From contig NZ_GG692710.1 of assembly GCF_000156175.1 (NCBI RefSeq), positions 188,160-252,159 of the forward strand: a stretch of DNA of 64,000 nucleotides, read 5' to 3'. Below, piece after piece: positions 8,925 through 59,306 of this stretch (within the stretch, counting starts at the first letter, position 1; each line of letters begins with the position of its first letter). The position numbers and the translations under genes were made by a program. A model generated the notes under the pieces. It did no database searches and was not told the origin of the DNA. It was given only the letters and a program-made list of their open reading frames with translations. This DNA comes from Collinsella intestinalis DSM 13280. Lineage in GTDB: Bacteria; Actinomycetota; Coriobacteriia; Coriobacteriales; Coriobacteriaceae.

Positions 8925-9713
8925 ATGGGACAGTTCAACCGCAACGACTACGACGGCCTTGTGCTCAACGAGTTTCATGACGGAACTGTTGCTGCGGCGT
9001 TTACCGAGCGCACGGGCGGCGCTTCCGAGTCGCCGTATGCCTCTTTGAACCTCGGTTCCCATGTGGGGGACGACCTGGCTGCCGTGATGGAGAATCGCCG
9101 CCGCGTGCTCGCGGCGCTCGGGTGCGCCGGCGATTTCGAGCTGCTGCTCGTGCCCAACCAAGTGCACGGCGATTGCGTCGCCGTCGTTCGGGAGGGCTCG
9201 GATGATGAGCTCGCCCGCGTGCGCGAGCAAATAGCCGAGGGTTCCGATGCCATTGTGTGCGTCGCCGCGCATGTCCCGGTGATGCTGTGCTTCGCCGACT
9301 GCGTGCCGGTTGTGCTCACCTGCCCAGGCGGGTTCGCGGTCATTCACTCGGGATGGAAGGGGACGATCGCCCGCATCTCGGCCAAAGCTGCGAGCATCCT
9401 GTGCGAGACCGCAGCATGCCCTGCAGGCTCCGTTCGGGCATATATCGGTCCGTATATCCTCGGTGACGAATACGAGGTCTCCCAAGAGCTCATGGAGCGT
9501 TTTTGCGCGGAGTTCGGGTGGGTCAACGTGGGGGATTCCCGCATGCTCGATCTCGGCCGTGCGATCAGGCAGGCCCTCGTCGAGACAGGGGTACCTGAGG
9601 ATGCCATCTGCGACCTCGGTCTCTCGACCGTTCGATGCAACGACCGCTTTTTCTCTTATCGTGCGGAGAAGGGGACGTGCGGGCGCCATGCGGCGGTCGC
9701 GGTCATGGTGTAG
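8925..9713 (+). CDS. pgeF: peptidoglycan editing factor PgeF / YfiH-type multicopper-like oxidase fold
   Basis: Member of the YfiH/PgeF family (formerly 'laccase domain' proteins); in other bacteria it removes L-Ser-containing mis-made muropeptide precursors, and purine nucleoside hydrolysis has also been reported. The 262-residue protein shows FTERTGGASESPYASLNL, CFADCVPVVL, HSGWKGT and IGPYI, which include the conserved Cys/His zinc ligands. The ATG at 8925 follows GAGGAGGAAGG. In many genomes this gene sits directly after ftsZ and before yggS; here a phosphate operon separates them. A TAGAAT element at 8885 could be a -10 box. Confidence 0.9.
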   Translation: MGQFNRNDYDGLVLNEFHDGTVAAAFTERTGGASESPYASLNLGSHVGDDLAAVMENRRRVLAALGCAGDFELLLVPNQVHGDCVAVVREGSDDELARVREQIAEGSDAIVCVAAHVPVMLCFADCVPVVLTCPGGFAVIHSGWKGTIARISAKAASILCETAACPAGSVRAYIGPYILGDEYEVSQELMERFCAEFGWVNVGDSRMLDLGRAIRQALVETGVPEDAICDLGLSTVRCNDRFFSYRAEKGTCGRHAAVAVMV

Positions 9714-9974: not shown

Positions 9975-10817
9975 ATGCGCAAGCTCTTCTCACGTCAGCT
10001 CATCGAGGCCCGCCACGAGATGCTCTCCATCTTCGAGGCCATTGACCTCACCCTGCACGATGCCGTCAACGCCTTTATGGTCGACGATAAGGAGCTGGCC
10101 CGCCGCGCCCAGCAGGCGACGCTGGCGATCGATGCCCGCAGCGCGAACCTCGAGGCCGTGTGCTACAACCTCATTGCCACTCAGAGCCCGGTCGCGTCCG
10201 ACTTTCGCCTGCTCCAGACGATCATTTACGTCAATTTCAACCTCCAGCGCATGAGCGACAAGGTTCGTCGTATCGCCCGCGCCGCCAAGCGCAAAGTCAA
10301 CAACGATATCGAGCTGCCGACCGAGCTGGTCGATCTCATTCAGCGCGAGTCCGAGTGCGTGTACCGCGTCCTGGGCGCCTCTGCTTCCGCCCTGGTCAAC
10401 AACGACCTTGCCGCCATGGCGGACCTCGCGCAGCGCGACGATGAGGTGCACGAGGTGTACGAGCGCTTCTTTCGTACGTACAACCGCATGGACGCCGAGG
10501 AGCTCGCCGACGACGCCTCCCTGGACGACCTGCGCCGCGTCATCATGGTCTCCCGCTATCTGGATCGTATCGCCGCCATCTCCATCGACGCGGCGTTCCG
10601 CATCGCCTTCCTGCTGACCGGTCAGCGCTGGAGCGTGGCGGACCTCATCGAGACCGATGAGGGCGAGCTCGAGAGCATGCGCATCCCCTCCGGCGAGGGC
10701 GTGACGCTCGACCCGGTCCGCGATGCCCGAGCTGTGGCGTCCCTGGCTCCCGACGAGGTGGGTGGTAAGCTTGCCTCGCTCATCCGCGAGGTCGAATCCG
10801 AGGATGGTGGCGAATAG
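9975..10817 (+). CDS. phoU: PhoU-family phosphate signalling regulator (first copy)
   Basis: Cytoplasmic metal-binding helical-bundle protein that couples the Pst transporter to phosphate signalling. The 280-residue product opens with MRKLFSRQLIEARHEM and has the two three-helix repeats of PhoU, including ARRAQQATLAIDARSANLE and a repeated E/D-rich metal site region. It is strongly similar over its whole length to the second PhoU at 14618. The ATG at 9975 follows AAAAGGAT; an upstream in-frame start at 9948 lacks a good ribosome-binding site. It leads the operon ahead of pstS. No phosphate-type sensor kinase or response regulator lies in the window. Confidence 0.92.
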   Translation: MRKLFSRQLIEARHEMLSIFEAIDLTLHDAVNAFMVDDKELARRAQQATLAIDARSANLEAVCYNLIATQSPVASDFRLLQTIIYVNFNLQRMSDKVRRIARAAKRKVNNDIELPTELVDLIQRESECVYRVLGASASALVNNDLAAMADLAQRDDEVHEVYERFFRTYNRMDAEELADDASLDDLRRVIMVSRYLDRIAAISIDAAFRIAFLLTGQRWSVADLIETDEGELESMRIPSGEGVTLDPVRDARAVASLAPDEVGGKLASLIREVESEDGGE

Positions 10818-10950
10818 GGGCAAGGCGCACTGGAAATCCCAGCGCTGGGCGGTTGCGCGCTTAAAATTTGATACCATGAATCGAACATTGCGCGGGCGCA
10901 TGGGCGTCCGCGCGTTTGCGTCTATCGCTCGAAGAGATCGGAGTCCCTCC

Positions 10951-11883
10951 GTGCGACGTTCACGTCATGCCTGTCCGGGCGCGGCGCCCCATCCCTTGGG
11001 TGCGCATCGCTGCTCGGGAGGCGCGCACTGCGCCCTGCCGTTCAGGGCGTCTCGGCTGTTCATCACGGCCGCCCTGTCCCTTTCCACCATGCTCGCCCTG
11101 ACGTCGTGCAGCTCGGGAACGTCGACGGAGTCGATCACCGTCGCGGGTTCGACGACCTGCCTGCCGATCGCAGAACAGGCGGCCGAGCTGTTCAAGGAGG
11201 AGACCGGAACCGGCGTCCTCGTGAGCGGCCTGGGCTCTTCCGCCGGCATCGAGGCCGTCTCCACCGGCACCGCCGAGATCGCGACGTCCTCTCGCGGCCT
11301 GAACGCCGAGGAGCAAAAACTCGGCCTCACCACGATCCCCGTCGCCCATGACGGCATCGCCGTGATCGTGAACACCGCCAACCCCGTTCAGAACCTCTCC
11401 ATCGAACAGCTGCGCGGCATCTACTCAGGCAAGATCTCCAACTGGAGCGAGGTGGGGGGAGAGGACCTGCCCATCCAGCTCGTGAATCGCGACGAGGCCT
11501 CCGGCACGCGCGAGGCCTTCAAGTCCATCGTCATGGATGGCGAGCCCTTCGACCGTCGCGCCGCCGTTCTCTCCGGCACCGGCCAGGTGCGCGACGTCGT
11601 CAGTCGTTCCCGCGGCGCCATCGGCTACATCTCCATGGGCTTCGTGGAGTCCGCCTATGCCGAGACCGAGGTCCGCGCCCTCAACGTGAACCACGTCGAG
11701 CCCCAGGAGAAGACCATCGCCTCCGGTGGCTATCCCATTTCCCGCGATCTGTACTTCTTCACCAAGGGCGAGCCCACGGGCGCAGCCGCTGAGTACATCG
11801 CCTACGTCCTGTCCGATGAGATGGACGATCAGATTCGCGAGGCCGGCTTCATCCCGGTCTCGGGCAACGCGGAGGGGGAGTGA
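10951..11883 (+). CDS. pstS: phosphate ABC transporter substrate-binding lipoprotein PstS
   Basis: Surface lipoprotein that captures phosphate for PstCAB. It has a hydrophobic signal ending in the lipobox LTSC, then VAGSTTCLPIAEQAAELF, the TSSRGLNAEE segment and NRDEASGTREAF, the standard phosphate-contact motifs of PstS (the last with the conserved SGTRE). The start is uncertain: GTG at 10951 has GGAG 7 bases upstream and gives 310 residues with a rather long n-region, while an ATG at 10876 would add 25 more residues without a ribosome-binding site. The gap of 133 bases from phoU could hold a promoter. pstC starts immediately after the stop. Confidence 0.9.
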   Translation: MRRSRHACPGAAPHPLGAHRCSGGAHCALPFRASRLFITAALSLSTMLALTSCSSGTSTESITVAGSTTCLPIAEQAAELFKEETGTGVLVSGLGSSAGIEAVSTGTAEIATSSRGLNAEEQKLGLTTIPVAHDGIAVIVNTANPVQNLSIEQLRGIYSGKISNWSEVGGEDLPIQLVNRDEASGTREAFKSIVMDGEPFDRRAAVLSGTGQVRDVVSRSRGAIGYISMGFVESAYAETEVRALNVNHVEPQEKTIASGGYPISRDLYFFTKGEPTGAAAEYIAYVLSDEMDDQIREAGFIPVSGNAEGE

Positions 11884-29072: not shown

Positions 29073-29090
29073 TATTCTCTATTGAGAATA
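29073..29090. promoter_or_regulatory. perfect palindromic operator TATTCTC-N4-GAGAATA before moeA
   Basis: TATTCTC (29073-29079), TATT, GAGAATA (29084-29090) is a perfect 7-bp inverted repeat. It lies 70 bases before the moeA start and about 110 before the divergent CLC gene. Related sites occur before modA at 31070 and 31087. A molybdate-responsive ModE-type regulator (encoded at 58977) is the obvious candidate to bind it, by inference. Confidence 0.6.
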
Positions 29091-29159
29091 TACGGGCGCG
29101 TATATCACGTCGGATGAACGACGGTGGATGGCGCGTCAAAACGAGGGAAGGGGCGAGGT

Positions 29160-30440
29160 ATGGCTCGCGGAAAGAATCCCGATGCGAACATGATCCCAGT
29201 CGAGGAGGCGCGCCGCATCGTGCTCGGATGCATGCGCTCCACCGAGGTGCGCGAGGTGCCGGCGTGGCAGGCCGCGGGATTGCCGCTGGCGGCCGACATC
29301 GAGACCGACATCGATCTGGCACCCTTCGCCAACAGCGCCATGGACGGCTATGCCCTGCATGCCGCCGACCTCGCCGCCGCCACGGCCGACGGCCCCGTCG
29401 TGCTCGACGTCGTGGGTCACGAGGCGGCCGGCCATGTCTTCGAGGGCGAGGTCGGCCACGGCCAGACCGTGCGCATCATGACGGGCGCGCCGGTACCGGA
29501 GGGCCTGGACGCCGTGGTGAAGTACGAGGTCGTCGAGGTGCTCGAGGGCGACGGCAACGAGGGCTCGCGCGTGTCGTTTGCCGCGCCGGCAAAGCCCGGT
29601 GAGAATATCCGCGCCGCAGGTCTCGAGGCCCGTGCGGGCGATGTGGTCATGGCCGCCGGCGAGGTCGTGACGCCGGCGGGCGCGGGTCTACTTGCCAATG
29701 CCGGCCATGCGTTCGTGCCGGTGCATCGCGCCCCGCGCGTGGGCATCATCTCGCTCGGCACCGAGCTCGTCGATGCCGGTGCGGTTCCCGCGCGCGGCCA
29801 GATCCGAGATGTCAACGGGCCCGCGCTCATGGCGTCGGCCCGCGAGGCGGGCGCAGAGCCCGTGTTCTACGGCATCGCGCCCGACGACGAGGAGCGTATC
29901 TGCGAGCTCGTCCGTCGCGCGGCGTCTGAGTGCGATGTCGTGGTGACGTCCGGCGGCGCGTCCGCCGGCGATTACGACTATGTGACGGCGCTCATCGAGC
30001 GCGAAGGCGAGGTCCTCTTCGACCGCGTCTCCATCAAGCCGGGCAAAGCCGTGACCTTTGGCCTGCTGGGCGAGACGCCGTTTTTCGGCCTCTCGGGCAA
30101 CCCCGCCGGCGCGTTCGTGGGTTTTGAGTTGTTCGTGCGCCCGGCGCTGCGCAAGATGATGGGGCATACGGAGCTCGCGCGTCCCGTTCAGGAGGCTCGC
30201 GCCACCCATGGCATCAAGAAGCGCCCGGGCCGCGCCGCGTACAACCGTGCGCGCGTGGAGCGAGCCGGTGCCGATGGCGAGCTCGAGGTGATGCAGGCAC
30301 CCACGCAAAACTCCGCCTTGCTCGTGGACCTGCATCGGGGCAACTGCCTGGTCATGCTCGATGAGGATGCCGGTCGCGTTGACGCGGGGGAGGCCGTTGC
30401 GGTCCTGCGCTACGACGTGCCCGAGGGCACGGTCCTGTAG
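29160..30440 (+). CDS. moeA: molybdopterin molybdenumtransferase MoeA
   Basis: Inserts molybdate into adenylated molybdopterin to form Moco. The 426-residue product has the MoeA N-terminal region (FANSAMDGYALHAADL, MTGAPVPEGLDAVVKYE), a beta domain, then the MogA-like domain (GIISLGTELVDAG, GQIRDVNGPALMA, VTSGGASAGDYDYV, GLSGNPAGAFVGFELFV) and a C-terminal beta domain. ATG at 29160 is preferred: it follows GAAGGGGCGAGG; an in-frame GTG at 29124 lacks a site. First gene of the molybdenum block, directly behind a palindromic operator. Confidence 0.93.
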   Translation: MARGKNPDANMIPVEEARRIVLGCMRSTEVREVPAWQAAGLPLAADIETDIDLAPFANSAMDGYALHAADLAAATADGPVVLDVVGHEAAGHVFEGEVGHGQTVRIMTGAPVPEGLDAVVKYEVVEVLEGDGNEGSRVSFAAPAKPGENIRAAGLEARAGDVVMAAGEVVTPAGAGLLANAGHAFVPVHRAPRVGIISLGTELVDAGAVPARGQIRDVNGPALMASAREAGAEPVFYGIAPDDEERICELVRRAASECDVVVTSGGASAGDYDYVTALIEREGEVLFDRVSIKPGKAVTFGLLGETPFFGLSGNPAGAFVGFELFVRPALRKMMGHTELARPVQEARATHGIKKRPGRAAYNRARVERAGADGELEVMQAPTQNSALLVDLHRGNCLVMLDEDAGRVDAGEAVAVLRYDVPEGTVL

Positions 30441-30557
30441 TCCGTCTGCCTCGTGCGCCCCGGGTGGGCTTCGTCCTTCGAAAAGGACGACGTCTGCCCG
30501 TTCCTCATGTTCCAAACGACGCGCTCGACGGGGGCGTCGGCGCCGAAGGGGGTTTCC

Positions 30558-31064
30558 ATGGATATCAAGTTCGCGATCGTGACCTGCTCTGATACGCGCA
30601 CCATCGAGCAGGATGAGGCCGGCTCCGCGCTTGTCGGGCTCATCGAGGGCGCGGGCTGGCACGTCGTCTCTCACGTGGTGGCTTGTGATGATGCGCGCGA
30701 CATCTCGGACGCCATCCGCGCCGCGACCGATGAGCTCGGTGTGGATATCGTCCTGACCTGCGGCGGTACGGGCCTGTCTGCCCGCGATGTGACGCCCGAG
30801 GCCACGGCCGTGGTCTGCGAGCGTGACGTGCCCGGCATCGCCGAGGCGATCCGCGCGTATTCGCTTGCAAAGACCCGTCGTGCCATGCTCTCGCGCGCTC
30901 GTTGCATGCAGCGCCTGGTGCGCGGCTCGGATGGATCGTTCACCGGCCGCCTGGCGCTCGTCATCAATTTCCCGGGCTCCACCAAGGCCGCGCGGGAATG
31001 TTGGGAGGCCGTGTCCGACCAACTCGAGCACGCCATGAAGATGGCGGCCGGTGGCGGGCATTAA
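30558..31064 (+). CDS. mogA: molybdopterin adenylyltransferase / MoaB-MogA family protein
   Basis: Activates molybdopterin by adenylation ahead of MoeA. The 168-residue single-domain protein has FAIVTCSDTRTIEQDEAG, VLTCGGTGLSARDVTPEAT and the LVINFPGSTKAARECWE end, which are typical for the MogA/MoaB fold. MogA and MoaB are hard to separate by motif; pairing with moeA supports the adenylyltransferase role. It starts after GAAGGGGG 117 bases downstream of moeA, a rather long gap for an operon. Its stop codon is immediately followed by the modA operator region. Confidence 0.88.
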   Translation: MDIKFAIVTCSDTRTIEQDEAGSALVGLIEGAGWHVVSHVVACDDARDISDAIRAATDELGVDIVLTCGGTGLSARDVTPEATAVVCERDVPGIAEAIRAYSLAKTRRAMLSRARCMQRLVRGSDGSFTGRLALVINFPGSTKAARECWEAVSDQLEHAMKMAAGGGH

Positions 31065-31069
31065 TACAT

Positions 31070-31104
31070 TATTCTCAGTAGAGTATTATTCTCGAACGAA
31101 TATA
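31070..31104. promoter_or_regulatory. tandem operator-like palindromes and -10 box before modA
   Basis: Two degenerate relatives of the moeA operator lie 17 bp apart: TATTCTC-AGTA-GAGTATT (31070-31087) and TATTCTC-GAAC-GAATATA (31087-31104). A TATAAT -10 box (31101-31106) overlaps the second. A bound regulator would cover the promoter core. There is no good -35 box. This spacing suggests side-by-side binding on one face or nearly so of the helix. Confidence 0.55.
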
Positions 31105-31117
31105 ATATGATCGACTC

Positions 31118-31248: not shown

Positions 31249-32118
31249 ATGGAAAAGACGCTCAACACGCCCGCCCGCGCTATGTCGCGCCGCTCGCTCG
31301 TCGCGTTCGGCCTCACCGCTCTGTTCGCCGGCACGCTCGCCGGCTGCGGCGCCAAGCCCGCCGATACCGCCGGGTCCACTCCCGCCAAGGCCGTCGAGCT
31401 GCAGATCTTCGCAGCCAATTCCCTCGAGAAGGCCATGCCCGAGGTCCAGGCCCTCTACACCGAGAAGACCGGCGTGACCTTTGCCGACACCCAGTTCAAG
31501 GCATCTGGCGATCTCATCGAGCAGATGCGTGCCGGCGCCCAGGCCGACGCCCTGATCACCGCTTCCAAGGGCACCATGGATGACGCCGTCGCGGGCGGGC
31601 TCGTCGACGAGGCCACGCGCCTGGACATGTTCGTGAACGATCTGGTGGTCGTGAAGGCGGAGGGTTCCGGTGCCGTGATCGCCTCGCTCGAGGATGTGAA
31701 GAACATCGAGGGCAAGGTCGCCATCGGCGATGCCGTGACCGTCCCGGCCGGCAAGTACGCCAACCAGGCCCTGAACACCATCGGCCTGTATACCGGCGCC
31801 GCCGGTGACGACGGCGAGTACGCGCCCGAGTTTGCTAGCTGCGTCGCCCTGGCCGACAAGGTGGGCACCGCCGCCAAGTACGTTTCCACCGGCGATGCGA
31901 CCATCGGCTTTGTCTACAGCTCTGACATCTTTCGCTACGACGGCATCGAGCAGGCTTTTGTCTGCCCTGAGGATTCCCATAAGCCCATCGTCTACCCCGG
32001 TGCCGTTGCCGCCTCGAGCGAGCATGCTAAAGCAGCGGCCGACTTCCTCGACTTCTGCATGAACGATGCCGAGGCTCAGAAGGTTTGGGCCAAGTACGGC
32101 TTCGAGCTGTTTGCGTAA
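31249..32118 (+). CDS. modA: molybdate ABC transporter substrate-binding lipoprotein ModA
   Basis: Surface lipoprotein that binds molybdate or tungstate. The 289-residue product has an n-region with SRRSLVAF, a hydrophobic core and a lipobox LAGC at Cys33, followed by the ModA core (LQIFAANSLEKAMPEVQALY, GVTFADTQFKASGDLIEQMRAGAQADALI, VPAGKYANQAL, YPGAVAASSEHAKAAADFLDF). The ATG follows a perfect AGGAGG site. First gene of modABC, preceded by the tandem operator and a hairpin leader. Confidence 0.93.
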   Translation: MEKTLNTPARAMSRRSLVAFGLTALFAGTLAGCGAKPADTAGSTPAKAVELQIFAANSLEKAMPEVQALYTEKTGVTFADTQFKASGDLIEQMRAGAQADALITASKGTMDDAVAGGLVDEATRLDMFVNDLVVVKAEGSGAVIASLEDVKNIEGKVAIGDAVTVPAGKYANQALNTIGLYTGAAGDDGEYAPEFASCVALADKVGTAAKYVSTGDATIGFVYSSDIFRYDGIEQAFVCPEDSHKPIVYPGAVAASSEHAKAAADFLDFCMNDAEAQKVWAKYGFELFA

Positions 32119-32205: not shown

Positions 32206-32230
32206 CATGTCGAGGGTAGGAGCGTGCCAT

Positions 32231-33934
32231 ATGGGCATGGGCCGAGATAGTTGGGATCTTTGCGGGGGTTGCGCAGGCGGCATCGTGCGACGGGTCGGCG
32301 CGCTTCGGCGATTCGTCGGCGGCCGCGCGGCGCGTTCATGGGTTTTGGCCCCTGTCGTGATCGTATCGTGCGTGTTGATGGTCGCTGCCGCTGCAATGCC
32401 GGTCTCCGCCATGGCCGTCCCGACGGTACTCGAGGCTCCCGAACAACAGACTGTGGAGATCCTCGCAGATGACTCCGCTCGAGTGGATGGCGCCTCGTTT
32501 GGCATCATCGGATTTGAGCGCCTCGCCAAAGGCACGGCCCGTGCGTCCGAGGGTGCGCCCGAAGGCTATCGACTTCCAATCTCGGATTCTGCCGGCTTGG
32601 TGGTTGTCCGCGCGCCCGGTGAGGTACTCTTGCACGTCGATCGCGAGGTCGCGGCAATGTTCGATCTGGATGACCCGAGCGGCGCGGACCTATCTGCCTT
32701 GTGGTCGATGGTCTGCGCGCTCGACGAGGCCGGCAGCATGGGCGGCGCCCTGCTCTCGGAGGGAGAAGTGCCTCTCAGGCTCGTGACTGATTCCGAGTGC
32801 GTGTCCGGTGCCTTTCGGTATCGCTTCGATGCGCGTGGCGATGACGGCGCGCGCTATGTGACTGTGACATTGGCGAAGGCCGAGGAGGGCGAGGCCGGTC
32901 TGGATGCGGCGCGTGCCGCCGGCGTCGACCTGGGCGACGGCGTGTTGTGGTGCGATTTCGCCCAGGTTGTCGATGCGGGAAACATGGTCGCCAAAGACGA
33001 TCCGGGCGTTGTCGGAGAGGCCCTCGCCTTCTTCTCGTCCATCGATTACCGCCCATTTTGGGTATCGCTCAAGACCAGCGGCCTGGCGCTGGCCATCTCC
33101 TTTGCGTTGGGGTTGTTCGCCGCATGGCGCGTCATGGGCACGTCGAGTCGTCTCAAGGGCGTCCTCGATTCGGTGTTCACCATTCCCATGGTGCTGCCCC
33201 CCACGGTCTGCGGCTTTTTGCTGCTCATGCTGTTCGGGCAATCCACGGCCGTGGGCCGCTGGCTCATAGCGCACGGCATCACGATCGTCTTCACGTGGGA
33301 GGCGGCGGTCATCTCGGCCATCGTGGTGAGCTTCCCGCTCGTGTACCGCACGGCTCTCGGCGCATTCGAGTCGCTCGACGGGCGCATGATCGACGCCGCC
33401 CGCACGCTCGGCTGGTCTGAGGTGCGAATCTTTTGCAGGCTCATGATGCCGCTTGCCTGGCCCTCCATCGCGGCCGGAACCGTGCTCGCCTTCGCTCGAG
33501 CTATGGGCGAGTTTGGCTGTACGCTGTTTTTCGCCGGCAACTACGCGGGCATCACCCAGACGATTCCCATCGCGATCTACTTCGAATGGATGGGCGGCAA
33601 TACCGCCGTTGCCCTGTTCTGGGTGATGGTCGTGATCGCGTTCAGCTTCCTGGTGGTCTGGGGCATCAACGCATATACCGCGCGCCATCAGGGGTACCGC
33701 GACGGTGCGCATGTAGGGGTCGTCGCACGCGGGGGAGTGAGAGAGAAGACGCGCGGTCATGCCCTCGCTCGTTCGTCGGCGGGCGCGGCGGCGGATGCCG
33801 GCGGGTCCCGCGCGGCGGCTATCACGAGTTTCGATGCGGACATGGTCGTCGACGATTTGGAATCGACGGGCGGAGATGCGGCTGCCATCGACCTGTCCGC
33901 TCTGCGCGAGCTATTTGAGGACGGTGCGGCATGA
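32231..33934 (+). CDS. modB: molybdate ABC transporter permease ModB with extra N-terminal extracytoplasmic domain
   Basis: Membrane permease of the molybdate importer. The C-terminal half (about residues 275-485) is a standard ModB: five to six helices, VFTIPMVLPPTVCGFLLL, and the EAA loop LDGRMIDAARTLGWSEVRIFCRLMMPLAWP with RAMGEFGCTLFFAGN. Unusually, it is preceded by a membrane anchor (about 36-60) and some 210 residues predicted outside the cell (VPTVLEAPEQQTVEILADDS to LWCDFAQVVDAGN) that I do not recognise. A hydrophilic tail of about 75 residues follows. At 567 residues it is over twice the normal size (about 225-260). ATG at 32231 follows GTAGGAG. It ends by ATGA overlap with modC. 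Confidence 0.85.
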   Translation: MGMGRDSWDLCGGCAGGIVRRVGALRRFVGGRAARSWVLAPVVIVSCVLMVAAAAMPVSAMAVPTVLEAPEQQTVEILADDSARVDGASFGIIGFERLAKGTARASEGAPEGYRLPISDSAGLVVVRAPGEVLLHVDREVAAMFDLDDPSGADLSALWSMVCALDEAGSMGGALLSEGEVPLRLVTDSECVSGAFRYRFDARGDDGARYVTVTLAKAEEGEAGLDAARAAGVDLGDGVLWCDFAQVVDAGNMVAKDDPGVVGEALAFFSSIDYRPFWVSLKTSGLALAISFALGLFAAWRVMGTSSRLKGVLDSVFTIPMVLPPTVCGFLLLMLFGQSTAVGRWLIAHGITIVFTWEAAVISAIVVSFPLVYRTALGAFESLDGRMIDAARTLGWSEVRIFCRLMMPLAWPSIAAGTVLAFARAMGEFGCTLFFAGNYAGITQTIPIAIYFEWMGGNTAVALFWVMVVIAFSFLVVWGINAYTARHQGYRDGAHVGVVARGGVREKTRGHALARSSAGAAADAGGSRAAAITSFDADMVVDDLESTGGDAAAIDLSALRELFEDGAA

Positions 33935-35037
33935 GCCTGAGCATGGCGATTAAGAAACGGTACCCGGGTTTTACGCTCGACGTCGCCCTTGAGGTGGGGG
34001 AGGAGCGCGTGGCCCTACTCGGGGCATCCGGGTGCGGCAAGAGCCTCACGCTGCGCTGCATCGCCGGCGTGGAGACCCCGGACGAGGGCCGCATCGTGGT
34101 GAACGGCGTGACCTTCTTCGATTCCGAGGCGGGGGTGAACCTCTCGCCGCAGGAGCGCAAGACGGCCTTGCTGTTCCAGAATTACCAGCTGTTCCCGCAT
34201 ATGACGGTGCTTGAGAACGTATGCGCCGGTATGGCGGGGCCGCGACTCGGACTGGGCGGCCGCATGGACGGGGAGGCTGCGAGGCGCGAGTCTCGGGCAC
34301 TACGGTTCCTCGAGATTTTCGGCGTCTCCACCTTTGCGGATCGGTTCCCCACACAGCTCTCCGGCGGCCAGCAGCAGCGCGTCGCGCTTGCCCGCATGCT
34401 TGCCGCTCGTCCGGGGATCCTCATGTTCGACGAGCCGTTCTCGGCGTTGGACTCATATCTCAAGAGCGCGCTCGAGCAAAACCTGCTCGACGTGTTCTCC
34501 GTGGTGGACCGTACGGTGCTCTACGTGAGTCACGATATCGACGAGGCGTGCCGCCTATGCGATCGCATCTGCGTGATGCATAACGGCCGCGTGGAGGAGA
34601 GCGGGACGGCAGGGGAGTTGATCGCGCGTCCGCAAACGCTGGCAGGCATGAGGCTTACGGGGTGCAAGAACACCTCGCGGGCCCGCAAGGTGTCTGACAC
34701 GGTGGTCGAGGCGCTTGATTGGGGCATGACGTTCGACATGGGCCGCGAGGTCCCCGATGACGTGGCCTACCTCGGCGTCCGTGCCCGGCATATTCACCGC
34801 GACCGTGCTCGTGCGGCAGGTGAGCTCGGGCGCAACAGCTTCGATCTGCACGTGGCGCGTGTGAGCGATGCACGATTCGAGCGGCTGGTGCTTCTTGAGC
34901 CGCCACTCGGGGGGTCGCGGTCCCGCATCCAATGGAAGGTCGACATCCTCGATGCGCCCACGGGTTCTCTGCCCGAGGCGGGCGAGACGCTTCGTCTGCA
35001 CTTCGATGCGAGCAGGCTGCTCTTGGTGAATCGATGA
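33931..35037 (+). CDS. modC: molybdate ABC transporter ATP-binding protein ModC
   Basis: Cytoplasmic ATPase of the molybdate importer. The 368-residue protein has Walker A GASGCGKSLT, Q-loop LFQNYQLFPHMT, signature [15 protein letters not shown], Walker B ILMFDEPFSALD and the H-loop SHD. After about residue 235 a regulatory beta-barrel (TOBE/MOP-like) domain follows, as usual for ModC. The start overlaps the modB stop by four bases (ATGA). Position after modA and modB makes molybdate the expected substrate; sulfate- or tungstate-type systems look similar. Confidence 0.9.
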   Translation: MSLSMAIKKRYPGFTLDVALEVGEERVALLGASGCGKSLTLRCIAGVETPDEGRIVVNGVTFFDSEAGVNLSPQERKTALLFQNYQLFPHMTVLENVCAGMAGPRLGLGGRMDGEAARRESRALRFLEIFGVSTFADRFPTQLSGGQQQRVALARMLAARPGILMFDEPFSALDSYLKSALEQNLLDVFSVVDRTVLYVSHDIDEACRLCDRICVMHNGRVEESGTAGELIARPQTLAGMRLTGCKNTSRARKVSDTVVEALDWGMTFDMGREVPDDVAYLGVRARHIHRDRARAAGELGRNSFDLHVARVSDARFERLVLLEPPLGGSRSRIQWKVDILDAPTGSLPEAGETLRLHFDASRLLLVNR

Positions 35038-35111: not shown

Positions 35112-35236
35112 CGCTTATCGGCGGGCTGGCGCCGTTTGCCTAAAACAAATGCCAACTTAACGACTATGAAAATAAGTTAATGACGTTGTGTCGACCGAGT
35201 GTTTCGCGGCCGAAGGGCCGCGGCTTGGAGGATTGC

Positions 35237-38200
35237 ATGGTCAAGGAACGTCGAATCGCCCTTGCGGCTTTGACTGCGGGGACGGCGCTCGCGTTGTCGT
35301 GGACACCTGCGCTGGCGATCGCCGCCGAGGTGGATGGACCCGTGGCGGCTGTCGAGCGCGTGGGTTCAACCGCGAACCTGCCCAAGACGAATGAGTTTCA
35401 CAAGGTGACGAAGGGAATTGAATCGGGTCAGACGTACACGCTCGTCTCCTCTGATGCCCCTGCCGGTCAAAAACAGCGCATCTTGCACCTGACCGCTGGC
35501 AACCCAAAACTCGATCGTTGCCAGGTCGGGAGTGCCGCCGACAAGCTGACGCCGGTCGACTGCACGATTGGCGGGCATGCGGACAAGCATGAGCATGAGT
35601 GGACGGTCTCTGCAGTAGAGGGCGGCTATGCGATCAAGTCGAATGTCGAGGATGTCTACCTCAACCTGACCAAGGGCGGGGGAGAGGCGCGTACGACTCC
35701 CCAGGTGCTTTCCATCGCCCCCGGCGAGCATGGCGGATACGTTGTGAGCGCGCAGGTCGAGGGAGCGACTCGGTACCTCATGCATAACGACCGCGGTTGG
35801 ACCTCTGCAGATAAGCCGTATGAAGTGCTGTTCTATCAGCGCGTCGAGGTGCTGCCGGAGGTTGTGCCGAACCGCAAGCTGACCACGGGAACCACCCAAG
35901 ATCGCCCCTTCGCCCCCAATACGGGCGGAAGCAAGAACTTCCGCATCCCGTCCCTCATCACGCACAAGGACGGCAGCCTGCTCGCTGCCATCGACGCTCG
36001 CTGGAACCATGTGGGCGATGCCGCCGGTTTGGACACCATCTTCAGCCGCTCGACGGACGGCGGAAAGACCTGGTCCTTCAACTTCCCCAACTATTTCCCC
36101 GACTCCGTCGACGCCTTTAGCAACGAGGCGACCGCGTTCATCGACCCGGTGATGGCCCAGAAGGGCGATACGACCTACATGATGGTCGACCTATGGCCCG
36201 GCGGCGTCGCGCTCAACACGGCAAAGCACCAAGACCCCGTCAACGGCAGCGGATACGTTCAGATCGACGGGCGCCAGCGCCTCGTGCTCTTTGCTTCGCC
36301 GGTGCCGAGCGAGCAGCGCAAGGTGGGTGCCGAGCAGGGCGAGGGATATACGCACTATGTGGGCGATTTCGCCGCCGACGGTCTCGCGCCCGTCTACCGG
36401 AAGGATGGGGGCGCGGTCGAGCGGTATGTCGACCGGCACTACTACCTCTATGATCAGAATAAAGACCCGCTCTATTGCCAGCAGCTTGGCAGCTCCGCCT
36501 TCGTGCAGCAAAACGTGTTTTTCTACAAGGCGGAACTCCACGTGATGGCGACGTCGTACCTGTGGCTCATCAGCTCGAATGACGCAGGGGCGACGTGGAC
36601 CGATCCGCTCATGCTGAACGAGCAGGTTCGCACCAATCTGCCCGGCGGCAACGCGGCGTTTTACGGCGTGGGGCCGGGTCGCGGCCTGGTGACGTCGGGC
36701 GGCCGCATCGTGCTCCCGTGCTATACCTTCATCCGCGGCAAGGGTGATGGCAATGCCAGCGTCATCTATTCCGACGACGGCGTTACCTGGAAGCGCAGCA
36801 CCTCCCTGCAGTGCCAGACATCGGAGTCGACGGTTGTCGAAGTCGACGGCGTCCTTTATCTGTTCGCGCGCCACGGCTGGTATGCGGTTTCGCACGACGG
36901 CGGTGCCACGTGGGAAGAGGAGAGGAGCCTGCGCGATTCCGGCATAGACGTCTACACCGGCTGCCAGATCAGCGCGCTCAAGTATTCCAAGCTCATCGAC
37001 GGCAAGCCGGCGATTCTGCTCTCGTGTCCCACGGGGAGCAGTCGCGCAAACGGAAAGGTATACGTCGGCCTCGTCGGTGAAGACGGCAGCATCGAGTGGA
37101 AATACAGTCATGAGGTGCCCGATGCCAAGGGGCGGTTCGCCTACTCCTGTCTGACCGAGCGGACGGACGGTTCCGTCGATCTGCTCTGGGAAGGCGAGGG
37201 CGACGCCTCGAACTTCACGCACTTCGAGATGGCCCAAATCGCTCCGGGTGCGGAGGTTTCCAACAAGCGTGCGGTCTCAGTCCCGCTGTACGGGTCGGTC
37301 AAGATGAAGGTCGCCGCTTCGTTCTCCGGCTTTGGGGGCGTTGACGGTTCCATCGCCAAGATCAAGCTCGACAAAAACGATGACGGTACGGCGACGTTGA
37401 CAATCGAAGGCCTCAAGGAGGGGGAAGCTACCTTCACCGATGCGGCTTCGGGCATCGAGTACGTGGTCACAGTCGCCCCCTCTGCGCTGGAGGAAGTGAA
37501 GGTAGAGCAGGGAAAGGAAGTGTTCATCCCTGTATCCGCCGGCACGATCGAGCGCAAACCCGATGTCTCGGTGGCGCGAGTCGAGATGACTCAGGCTCCC
37601 TTTGTCGAGGTTTGGGGCGAGCCGGCGGCGGCTCTGGGCTCGGATCCCTCCTTTGCCGAGGGCGTGGCGCGCCTGAGCTCGGCGCTTTACACGTTCGAGA
37701 AGACAGATGATGCATGGGCCATCTCCGGGAAGACGGCTGCCGGTGAGCGGGTGTACCTGAACCTGTCCGGTGGCAAGATGCTGAGCCCCAACAAGGCTCA
37801 ATCTCATCCCATCGAGCTCAAATCGAATGATGACGGTACGTTCAAGCTATACGACCGCGGTCAGCTCGACGACAAAGTGAGTGGAGCTCATCTGCATTTT
37901 TGGCGCGATGGAAAGGCGAAGTTCGACCGCTGTCGTAACTCCTGTGGAGCCGGTGATGCATTTGAGCTGTGGAAGCTCGCCGGGGAAGCGCGGGGTGCGT
38001 CCGAAATCCCCGGGTACGAGCGCGTCGCCTCCGCTTCGGAGCTTGAGGACGGAGAGAGCTACCTGATCGTCGCAAAGGTGGGGGACGCTCGCTACGTTTT
38101 GAATCCCGCACGCGAGGGGGCGGGAGAGTACGCCCATGTCGCCAAGGTCGACCCCGATCGCGTCCAGTACCGACTCAAGGTCACGGCCGTGGGTCCCGGA

Positions 38201-38521
38201 ACGACGGATGTCCTGGTGGGTGGCACTGTCCATCGCATCACGGTTCCTGGTGACCCCACCCCTGAATTCCCTGAGGGCACGGGTCAGGGAAATGAGCAGG
38301 GTAATGGGCAATTGGGCCCGGAGGGCCAGGAGCAGGACTCCGGTCAGGGCCAGGTTGGCGGTCAGGGTCATGACGGCGGGCAGCATGGCGGGTCCCACAG
38401 CGCCTCCGCAAAGCCCGGCTCCGAGCTTCCCCAGACCGGCGACCCCGCGGTTATGGCCGCCGGCGTGTCCGCCCTTGGTGCGCTGATCGGCGGTCTTGGC
38501 CTCAGGTCCCGCAAGCGCTAG
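35237..38521 (+). CDS. nanH: LPXTG-anchored exo-alpha-sialidase (GH33)
   Basis: Cell-wall-anchored enzyme that releases sialic acid from host glycans. The 1094-residue protein has a signal peptide (about 1-35), an N-terminal domain, then a six-bladed propeller with the arginine-triad FRIPSLI motif (about residue 235) and four Asp-boxes: SRSTDGGKTW, SSNDAGATW, YSDDGVTW and VSHDGGATW (about 271, 446, 513, 552). A C-terminal region repeats features of the N-terminal one (VYLNL...GG). A Gly/Gln/Glu linker precedes LPQTGD (about 1063), a hydrophobic helix and RSRKR, a sortase signal. ATG follows TGGAGG. No sortase or sialic-acid catabolism gene lies in the window. Confidence 0.93.
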   Translation: MVKERRIALAALTAGTALALSWTPALAIAAEVDGPVAAVERVGSTANLPKTNEFHKVTKGIESGQTYTLVSSDAPAGQKQRILHLTAGNPKLDRCQVGSAADKLTPVDCTIGGHADKHEHEWTVSAVEGGYAIKSNVEDVYLNLTKGGGEARTTPQVLSIAPGEHGGYVVSAQVEGATRYLMHNDRGWTSADKPYEVLFYQRVEVLPEVVPNRKLTTGTTQDRPFAPNTGGSKNFRIPSLITHKDGSLLAAIDARWNHVGDAAGLDTIFSRSTDGGKTWSFNFPNYFPDSVDAFSNEATAFIDPVMAQKGDTTYMMVDLWPGGVALNTAKHQDPVNGSGYVQIDGRQRLVLFASPVPSEQRKVGAEQGEGYTHYVGDFAADGLAPVYRKDGGAVERYVDRHYYLYDQNKDPLYCQQLGSSAFVQQNVFFYKAELHVMATSYLWLISSNDAGATWTDPLMLNEQVRTNLPGGNAAFYGVGPGRGLVTSGGRIVLPCYTFIRGKGDGNASVIYSDDGVTWKRSTSLQCQTSESTVVEVDGVLYLFARHGWYAVSHDGGATWEEERSLRDSGIDVYTGCQISALKYSKLIDGKPAILLSCPTGSSRANGKVYVGLVGEDGSIEWKYSHEVPDAKGRFAYSCLTERTDGSVDLLWEGEGDASNFTHFEMAQIAPGAEVSNKRAVSVPLYGSVKMKVAASFSGFGGVDGSIAKIKLDKNDDGTATLTIEGLKEGEATFTDAASGIEYVVTVAPSALEEVKVEQGKEVFIPVSAGTIERKPDVSVARVEMTQAPFVEVWGEPAAALGSDPSFAEGVARLSSALYTFEKTDDAWAISGKTAAGERVYLNLSGGKMLSPNKAQSHPIELKSNDDGTFKLYDRGQLDDKVSGAHLHFWRDGKAKFDRCRNSCGAGDAFELWKLAGEARGASEIPGYERVASASELEDGESYLIVAKVGDARYVLNPAREGAGEYAHVAKVDPDRVQYRLKVTAVGPGTTDVLVGGTVHRITVPGDPTPEFPEGTGQGNEQGNGQLGPEGQEQDSGQGQVGGQGHDGGQHGGSHSASAKPGSELPQTGDPAVMAAGVSALGALIGGLGLRSRKR

Positions 38522-58976: not shown

Positions 58977-59306
58977 CTAAAACAGCTCGGTGAGGCGCTT
59001 CGCGATCATCGCGTCGAGCTCTGCCTGGAGGGTTCGATAGGCGTGGAGGGCATGTTCGCCCTCAGGGGTGAGCACCGAGCCGCGCGCACCGTCGCGGGCG
59101 AGCAGTTCGCAGCCCAGATGCCCCTCGGCCTCGCGTACGATTCTCCACGCCTTGGAATACGCCATGCCCATGCGTTTCGCCGCACGGTTGAGCGAGCCCT
59201 CTTCGGCGACGCCCTCCAGCAGTGAGGCGCACCCGCCGCCGAAAGCACCGGGTAGGTCGCGGTCGTCGTCGGAGATGGTGAGTCGGGCGTGGGCGGAAAG
59301 CGACAT
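58977..59306 (-). CDS. ModE-type molybdate-responsive winged-helix regulator (N-terminal domain only)
   Basis: 109-residue DNA-binding protein. LLEGVAEEGSLNRAAKRMGMAYSKAWRIVREAE is the LysR/ModE-type helix-turn-helix with the ModE spelling (GS...AAK.MGMSYKxAW), followed by a wing (GSVLTPEGEHALHAYRTL). It lacks the C-terminal MOP molybdate-binding domains of E. coli ModE (262 aa), as do many single-domain ModE relatives. The ATG follows TTGGAGCCCAT. Candidate regulator of the modABC/moeA block 28 kb away (inference). Confidence 0.85.
   Translation of the reverse strand: MSLSAHARLTISDDDRDLPGAFGGGCASLLEGVAEEGSLNRAAKRMGMAYSKAWRIVREAEGHLGCELLARDGARGSVLTPEGEHALHAYRTLQAELDAMIAKRLTELF

Follow-up and report, generated by a model that had tools for sequence, protein, structure and literature searches.

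The closest described counterpart of the system reported here is the E. coli-type ModE, a LysR-type winged-helix regulator that controls modABC and cofactor genes and carries tandem C-terminal Mop/TOBE domains; its box has the consensus ATCGNTATATA-N6-TATATANCGAT, a dyad of the geometry TAT-xxx-N6-xxx-ATA (given in passages of PMC545781 and PMC2700814). A ModE consisting of the DNA-binding domain alone is described for Desulfovibrio: passages of PMC545781 give a novel predicted palindrome, CGGTCACG-N14-CGTGACCG, before modABC, call the sensing by ModE proteins without Mop domains unclear, and report separate Mop-domain fusion proteins in Desulfovibrio genomes. In addition, a putative ModE of Agrobacterium has a single-domain structure (PDB 2ijl), and part of a further paper (PMC11980592) lists TOBE architectures and cites TaoR.

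We analyzed a stretch of 64 kb from Collinsella intestinalis DSM 13280 (the window), which contains a molybdenum gene cluster with palindromic sites and, separately, a gene for a short ModE-like protein of 109 residues (Table 1). The system has in common with E. coli-type ModE the LysR-type winged helix, the dyad geometry and, judging from the position of the sites, the control of modABC and cofactor genes; it differs in that the 109-residue protein lacks Mop/TOBE domains and scores under the TIGR00637 cut-off, in its half-site (TATTCT rather than TATATA), and in the phased arrays before modA. With Desulfovibrio ModE it shares the lone DNA-binding domain and a palindrome before modABC, whereas the sequence and spacing of the palindrome are different, and the host genome contains no protein that matches the TOBE domain (PF03459) above the cut-off (best score 13.1 bits). 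The Agrobacterium protein is the closest in size and has the same single-domain ModE fold (TM-scores of 0.79/0.78, from structure comparison only), but is only 25% identical to the 109-residue protein.

Table 1. Operator sites, promoter element and genes of the locus (positions in the window).
Feature	Position	Strand	Remarks
moeA operator	29073..29090	.	TATTCTCTATTGAGAATA; perfect palindrome TATTCTC-N4-GAGAATA, 0 mismatches, single site, 27.5 bits
moeA	29160..30440	+	ATG 29160 likely start by ribosome-binding site; ORF open from GTG 29124
mogA/moaB-type molybdopterin protein	30558..31064	+	
distal modA operator	31070..31087	.	TATTCTCAGTAGAGTATT; 2 mismatches, 19.0 bits
proximal modA operator	31087..31104	.	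TATTCTCGAACGAATATA; 2 mismatches, 21.2 bits, 17 bp from distal
putative -10 box TATAAT	31101..31106	+	fused to gene-proximal half-site of proximal modA operator
modA	31249..32118	+	TIGR01256 above cut-off
modB	32207..33934	+	TIGR02141 above cut-off
modC, ABC ATPase	33931..35037	+	TOBE domain not found by Pfam
short ModE-like regulator	58977..59306	-	109 aa, DNA-binding domain only

Palindromes at the Molybdenum Genes of Collinsella

The initial annotation had described a perfect palindrome before moeA, two degenerate copies before modA that overlap a TATAAT box, and a short ModE-type gene elsewhere in the window; all of these are present (Table 1), and the two modA operators have base 31087 in common. 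At up to three mismatches the window contains six matches to the motif (0.76 expected), a number reached in none of 100 shuffles. It had also been proposed that the motif flanks exactly the molybdenum genes, and indeed the three operators are the only strong sites of the window: a scan with a matrix trained on the relatives' modA promoters (host genome included) gave these three above 12 bits plus one marginal match (12.2 bits) at 9455.

Six places in the whole host genome (1.81 Mb, three contigs) match the motif with at most two mismatches, four of them before molybdenum/tungsten (Mo/W) genes and two (C3:718698 and C3:1243040) within unrelated genes, while the reversed pattern, used as a control at the same threshold, has no match in the genome. 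The fourth of the Mo/W-gene sites lies outside the window (C3:1306150-1306167, one mismatch), upstream of a ferredoxin/aldehyde ferredoxin oxidoreductase (AOR) operon, in which a 4Fe-4S protein (with a Tat signal, by eye) is followed by an AOR-type protein (PF02730/PF01314). The matrix scan found no 12-bit operator upstream of the host's moaA or rnfC, nor was an operator found in the promoter of its short modE gene, where the best match has five mismatches.

Pfam gives no match for the C-terminus of ModC. ModB has an N-terminal extension of about 288 residues (window 32207-33070) with no Pfam match at E<=5, and the ModB relatives of Slackia-like genomes are likewise long. The cluster is followed by a 1113-residue protein (window 35180-38521) that is apparently secreted and looks sialidase-like by eye; it has stretches of the SxDxGxTW type and, at its C-terminus, an LPQTG-like anchor.

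Conservation of the Palindrome across the Order

We surveyed 157 genomes of the order: 47 from the host's family, Coriobacteriaceae (f1), and the rest from other families (f2, f3, and f5 among them), of which we read f2 as Eggerthellaceae. modA was found in 99 of the 157 genomes, and 97 modA promoters were analyzed, leaving out G007 and G108 (weak matches) and the extra copies in G110. Far from being absent before modA in relatives, the motif occurs with at most two mismatches in the 300 bp upstream of modA in 35 of 40 f1 genomes (0.02 expected) and in 18 of 57 genomes from other families (0.08 expected); the reversed motif is found at this threshold in none of the 97 upstream regions.

Unseeded palindromic expectation maximization (EM) on the modA promoters, with the width fixed at 18, returned TATTCTCanntGAGAATA for the 40 f1 genomes, TATTCTcAtaTgAGAATA for 34 genomes of other families without a strong PF12727 protein, and a weaker palindrome, TATTCTtaattaAGAATA, for the 23 with such a protein. 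Thus the 18-bp core TATTCT-N6-AGAATA was recovered before modA in f1 and in other families of the order, with both half-sites conserved. The unseeded consensus, TATTCTC-N4-GAGAATA, does not match the E. coli operator and has the geometry alone in common with it; since both follow TAT-xxx-N6-xxx-ATA, the motif looks like a diverged ModE box. The initial annotation had contrasted the motif with the E. coli ModE box, and this stands for the half-sites, but the two are not unrelated.

The mean of the EM motifs from f1 and from the 34 genomes without a strong PF12727 protein was used as the scoring matrix, with dinucleotide shuffles as controls. Above 12 bits, sites were found in 85 of the 97 modA promoters, which are the training set (0.65 expected; 12 fall below), in 35 of 39 moeA promoters (0.12 expected), in 19 of 32 moaA promoters (0.00 expected; 13 without), and in 14 of 20 rnfC promoters, all from f1 (loci L236-L255; 0.15 expected; six without). 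The moeA sample comprises 39 of 40 loci (that of G065 has no remaining upstream sequence), and its held-out score is 32 of 36, because in three genomes (G038, G129, and G143) moeA and modA diverge from one gap and have its site in common. For moaA, 40 chosen genomes were searched, 34 matched, and 32 were analyzed; the count becomes 17 of 30 when G025 and G038, whose loci were picked for having a site, are set aside, and it includes one 12.1-bit sequence common to five related genomes. For rnfC, 34 chosen f1 genomes were searched and 20 matched, giving 12 of 18 without G129 and G134, the genomes that first pointed to this gene. All these counts are over related, not independent, genomes, a non-redundant set being used only for the array test below. 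The moeA matches of G129 (contig C23) and G143 (contig C2) each contain one in-frame TAA.

Sites with at most one mismatch are present in 74 of the 157 genomes, and we looked at 72 of the 75 places listed across the order. In f1 there are 40 such sites in 33 of 47 genomes (two for the reversed-pattern control), 36 of which lie upstream of Mo/W-cofactor, transport, AOR, or rnf genes: 26 before modA, three before moeA, two each before ferredoxin-AOR operons, moaA, and rnfC, and one before moaE. The remaining four comprise one before an unassigned fragment and three inside unrelated ORFs; two of these three belong to G092 and G098, both of which lack modA, moeA, and moaA. Among other families except f5, 15 of 26 examined sites (29 listed) precede recognized Mo/W genes (six modA, two MOSC, two moaE, two quinolinate phosphoribosyltransferase-like genes of what we take to be the modD type, one moaA, and two molybdopterin enzymes), and 11 lie elsewhere; one member each of the MOSC and modD pairs was checked by Pfam, the partner being the same protein by eye. 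None of the six f5 sites precedes a recognized Mo/W gene, and modA was not found in f5 save for one weak match in G108. The expectation that the motif is not scattered at random genes is therefore borne out in f1 (36/40), but less so outside it (15/26, and 0/6 in f5). Where recognized genes follow, the sites stand before modABC and molybdenum cofactor genes, which is the target set of a ModE-type regulator.

Two one-mismatch sites lie beside other possible transport genes. The one in G047 (L065/L259, around 3077) precedes a fragment that resembles a periplasmic binding protein but has no Pfam match, and that may be the remnant of a transporter gene; the one in G099 (L092, 1319-2534) is upstream of a Peripla_BP_2 protein, possibly belonging to a second Mo/W uptake system.

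Fusion with the Promoter and Phased Copies at modA

In 34 of 39 f1 modA promoters that have a site with at most three mismatches, an exact TATAAT on the gene strand begins 14 bases into the site, and in none of the 39 does it occur at the mirror position; in other families, exact TATAAT overlap was seen in two of 34. The gene-proximal half-site at f1 modA is thus merged with the -10 box, a geometry as for a repressor. At moeA, the left half-site is TATACT-like on the gene strand in nine of 15 promoters, against one of 15 for the mirror. A relaxed -10-like resemblance was rejected as proof of promoter overlap (59 of 73, vs 45 of 73 for the mirror); since the mirror often satisfies it too, we used the exact-hexamer test alone. 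The rnfC sites fall in two positions, either 47-52 bp or 122-224 bp upstream of where the match begins, which makes repression less evident at this gene.

We looked for additional copies around the strongest site in 63 non-redundant modA promoters (primary site >12 bits, secondary >8 bits), with the flanks shuffled around the fixed primary site as the control; neighboring sites 16 bp apart overlap by a TA, which this control takes into account. Secondary sites were found at offset 16 in 24 promoters (0.40 expected), 17 in four (0.00), 32 in 13 (0.07), 33 in six (0.03), and 66 in three (0.03), with one each at 48 and 49 and none at 65; all other offsets between 10 and 89 sum to 18 (1.7 expected). 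Altogether, at least one of the offsets 16, 17, 32, and 33 is occupied by a secondary site in 39 of the 63 promoters. Given this order-wide phasing, the 17-bp tandem at the host's modA is one case of it. The 34 moeA promoters that have a primary site contain no secondary one.

The Short ModE and Its Association with the Sites

The 109-residue protein matches PF00126 only (E 1.4e-13; LysR-type winged helix), with no Mop/TOBE domain found in it, and scores 38.2 bits against TIGR00637 (ModE_repress), below the cut-off of 98.5, although this is still its best-scoring NCBIfam model. It is 90% identical to the ModE of a Collinsella metagenome-assembled genome (MAG) and 83% identical to that of Collinsella stercoris, and a SLN..AK...MAYSKAWR stretch is invariant in it and 23 relatives. 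Its best sequence match in the PDB is 2ijl (E 2.5e-5). An AlphaFold model (pLDDT 95.2, pTM 0.86) has as its top Foldseek matches E. coli ModE (1b9m/1b9n) and the Agrobacterium single-domain ModE (2ijl); the predicted fold agrees with the ModE DNA-binding domain. A short ModE 57% identical to that of the window occurs in a MAG labelled Oscillospiraceae (L373), by mis-binning or transfer.

In three f2 genomes (G048, G087, and G113) and a further Slackia record (L370), modE and modA diverge from a gap that holds a site, and in another f2 genome (G153) the same is true of modE and modD. A further divergent modE-modA pair (G127, f2) has no site with at most three mismatches, modE adjoins a threonine-synthase-like gene (by eye) and not Mo genes in five other f2 loci, and in most of the inspected loci of other families it is not adjacent to Mo genes. 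We also examined 80 named loci (869 kb) found via ModE itself, among which the G048 record recurs as L363. At up to two mismatches they contain three places, all within two Slackia mod clusters. Above 14 bits there are 10 places: four in the Slackia mod clusters or before moaA of L347, two within 220 bp before modE (L342 and L371), and four in no expected place. The L347 site (22.3 bits) lies 57 bp upstream of the moaA match; there, moeA, mogA, and modE are in line with 16 bp separating mogA and modE, an order that L349 shares by position, and neither locus has a site directly before moeA.

Short ModE is present in 37 of the 47 f1 genomes, and these are 37 of the 41 that have cofactor genes; all six f1 genomes without modA, moeA, and moaA also lack it, with the IMPDH-like neighbor of modE intact in the four tested. 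The motif thus tracks the short ModE gene, as had been anticipated, and the co-occurrence of ModE and cofactor genes in f1 has a Fisher p of 2e-5, which ignores the kinship of the genomes. (The matches in 127 of 157 genomes include LysR-sized f5 proteins and are not a count of short ModE.) Four f1 genomes (G117, G140, G129, and G155) have modA and moeA yet lack short ModE; we rejected them as counter-examples. A search for the flanking IMPDH-like gene, named by eye, at E <= 1e-50 found nothing in three of them and, in G129, the final 118 residues alone, which makes an assembly gap more likely than loss of the entire block. Similarly, G029, which has ModE but not modA or moeA, has moaA and an rnfC site, and therefore its adjacent moeA-modA block may sit in an assembly gap. 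Two f3 genomes that have modA without short ModE score just 5.4 and 10.3 bits, so that neither has a strong site.

Alternative Explanations

We take the palindrome to be a real and conserved Mo/W operator; what binds it is a separate matter. In other anaerobes, AOR and Mo/W transport are reportedly governed by TaoR-type regulators, with an excisionase-like HTH and a PBP-like domain (Rajeev 2019), and the targets found here are of the same sort. One might therefore suppose that such a regulator, which belongs to another protein family, or else an ordinary LysR protein, binds the operator, and that short ModE merely co-occurs with it. Strong PF12727 proteins are present in other families of the order, but the 47 f1 genomes have weak matches only (E no better than 1.6e-14), on which ground we rejected TaoR as the binder in f1; of the host's two weak matches, one (window 10723-11883) is a PstS-like phosphate-binding protein beside a pstC-like gene and the other is at C3:101789. 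Moreover, outside f1, a strong PF12727 protein goes with fewer modA sites at up to two mismatches (3/23 genomes, vs 15/34 in its absence; p 0.02), and modE adjoins operator sites in several genomes. Exclusion of the motif by a strong TaoR-type protein holds only in part, as unseeded EM yields the weaker palindrome in genomes that have one. We regard another binder as improbable, and short ModE is, from the sequence comparisons, very probably the protein that binds the conserved operator.

Even less credible is that the palindrome is simply an AT-rich element of the promoter, or a hairpin in the transcript. The modA sites do overlap the -10 box and the inverted repeat is able to form a stem, but the half-sites are conserved on both sides of the palindrome, the -10 overlap at moeA is one-sided, rnfC sites lie up to 224 bp upstream of the match start, and the modA copies are phased at 16/17 and 32/33 bp. 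Since the modA site overlaps the -10 box and extends upstream from it, most of it would not be transcribed. At the gathering threshold, Rfam has no match between 26000 and 36000, and a Moco riboswitch in the leader was rejected accordingly. The signal raises a different question, and its answer is compatible with a ModE operator: the regulator could respond mainly to tungsten, or to the tungsten/molybdenum cofactor, and not to molybdate. One of the four Mo/W-gene sites of the host serves the Tat ferredoxin/AOR-type operon, 14 of 20 genomes have rnfC among the targets, and passages of PMC13328260 report class V tungsten oxidoreductases for Collinsella, Eggerthella, and Slackia; the main targets, however, are modABC and general cofactor genes, which are common to both metals, and we consider this variant rather doubtful.

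A Model of Control and Its Meaning

We thus favor, with a probability of about 0.83, the reading that the palindrome serves as operator for the window's single-domain ModE-like repressor, which would block RNA polymerase in response to Mo/W status. A dimer of the winged-helix protein would sit on the palindrome. At modA, the gene-proximal half-site would double as part of the -10 box, and at moeA, the left half-site would be the -10-like TATACT in many relatives. Two or more dimers could occupy the 16/17-bp-phased array at modA, while one site would serve moeA; control would then be tightest, and cooperative, at the transporter gene. When the metal or cofactor is plentiful, molybdate/tungstate uptake and cofactor assembly would be switched off, and when it is scarce, on. 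The initial annotation had further suggested that the motif defines a different operator for single-domain ModE proteins. For the Collinsella-type short ModE, this is supported by conservation, linkage, and co-occurrence, but the motif is not a general operator of single-domain ModE, because the Desulfovibrio protein has a different palindrome, predicted in passages of PMC545781.

More tentatively, the sensor-less ModE may polymerize on the modA arrays, where 16-bp phasing is about 1.5 helical turns and would place successive dimers on alternate faces, may read Mo/W through a partner or a non-TOBE site, and may in many relatives control the Rnf ferredoxin:NAD complex. Among the open-access literature matches listed, neither this motif nor a ModE regulon in Coriobacteria is described, a weak indication of novelty; what is new here is the phased copies at modA and, in f1, the fusion of a half-site with the -10 box.

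The analysis provides a concrete operator and regulon for a ModE made of the DNA-binding domain only, in gut bacteria with tungsten and molybdenum enzymes. A ModE without its metal-sensing half poses a testable question, namely how the metal is sensed; and if Rnf is indeed under the control of ModE, molybdenum/tungsten supply would be coupled to energy conservation.
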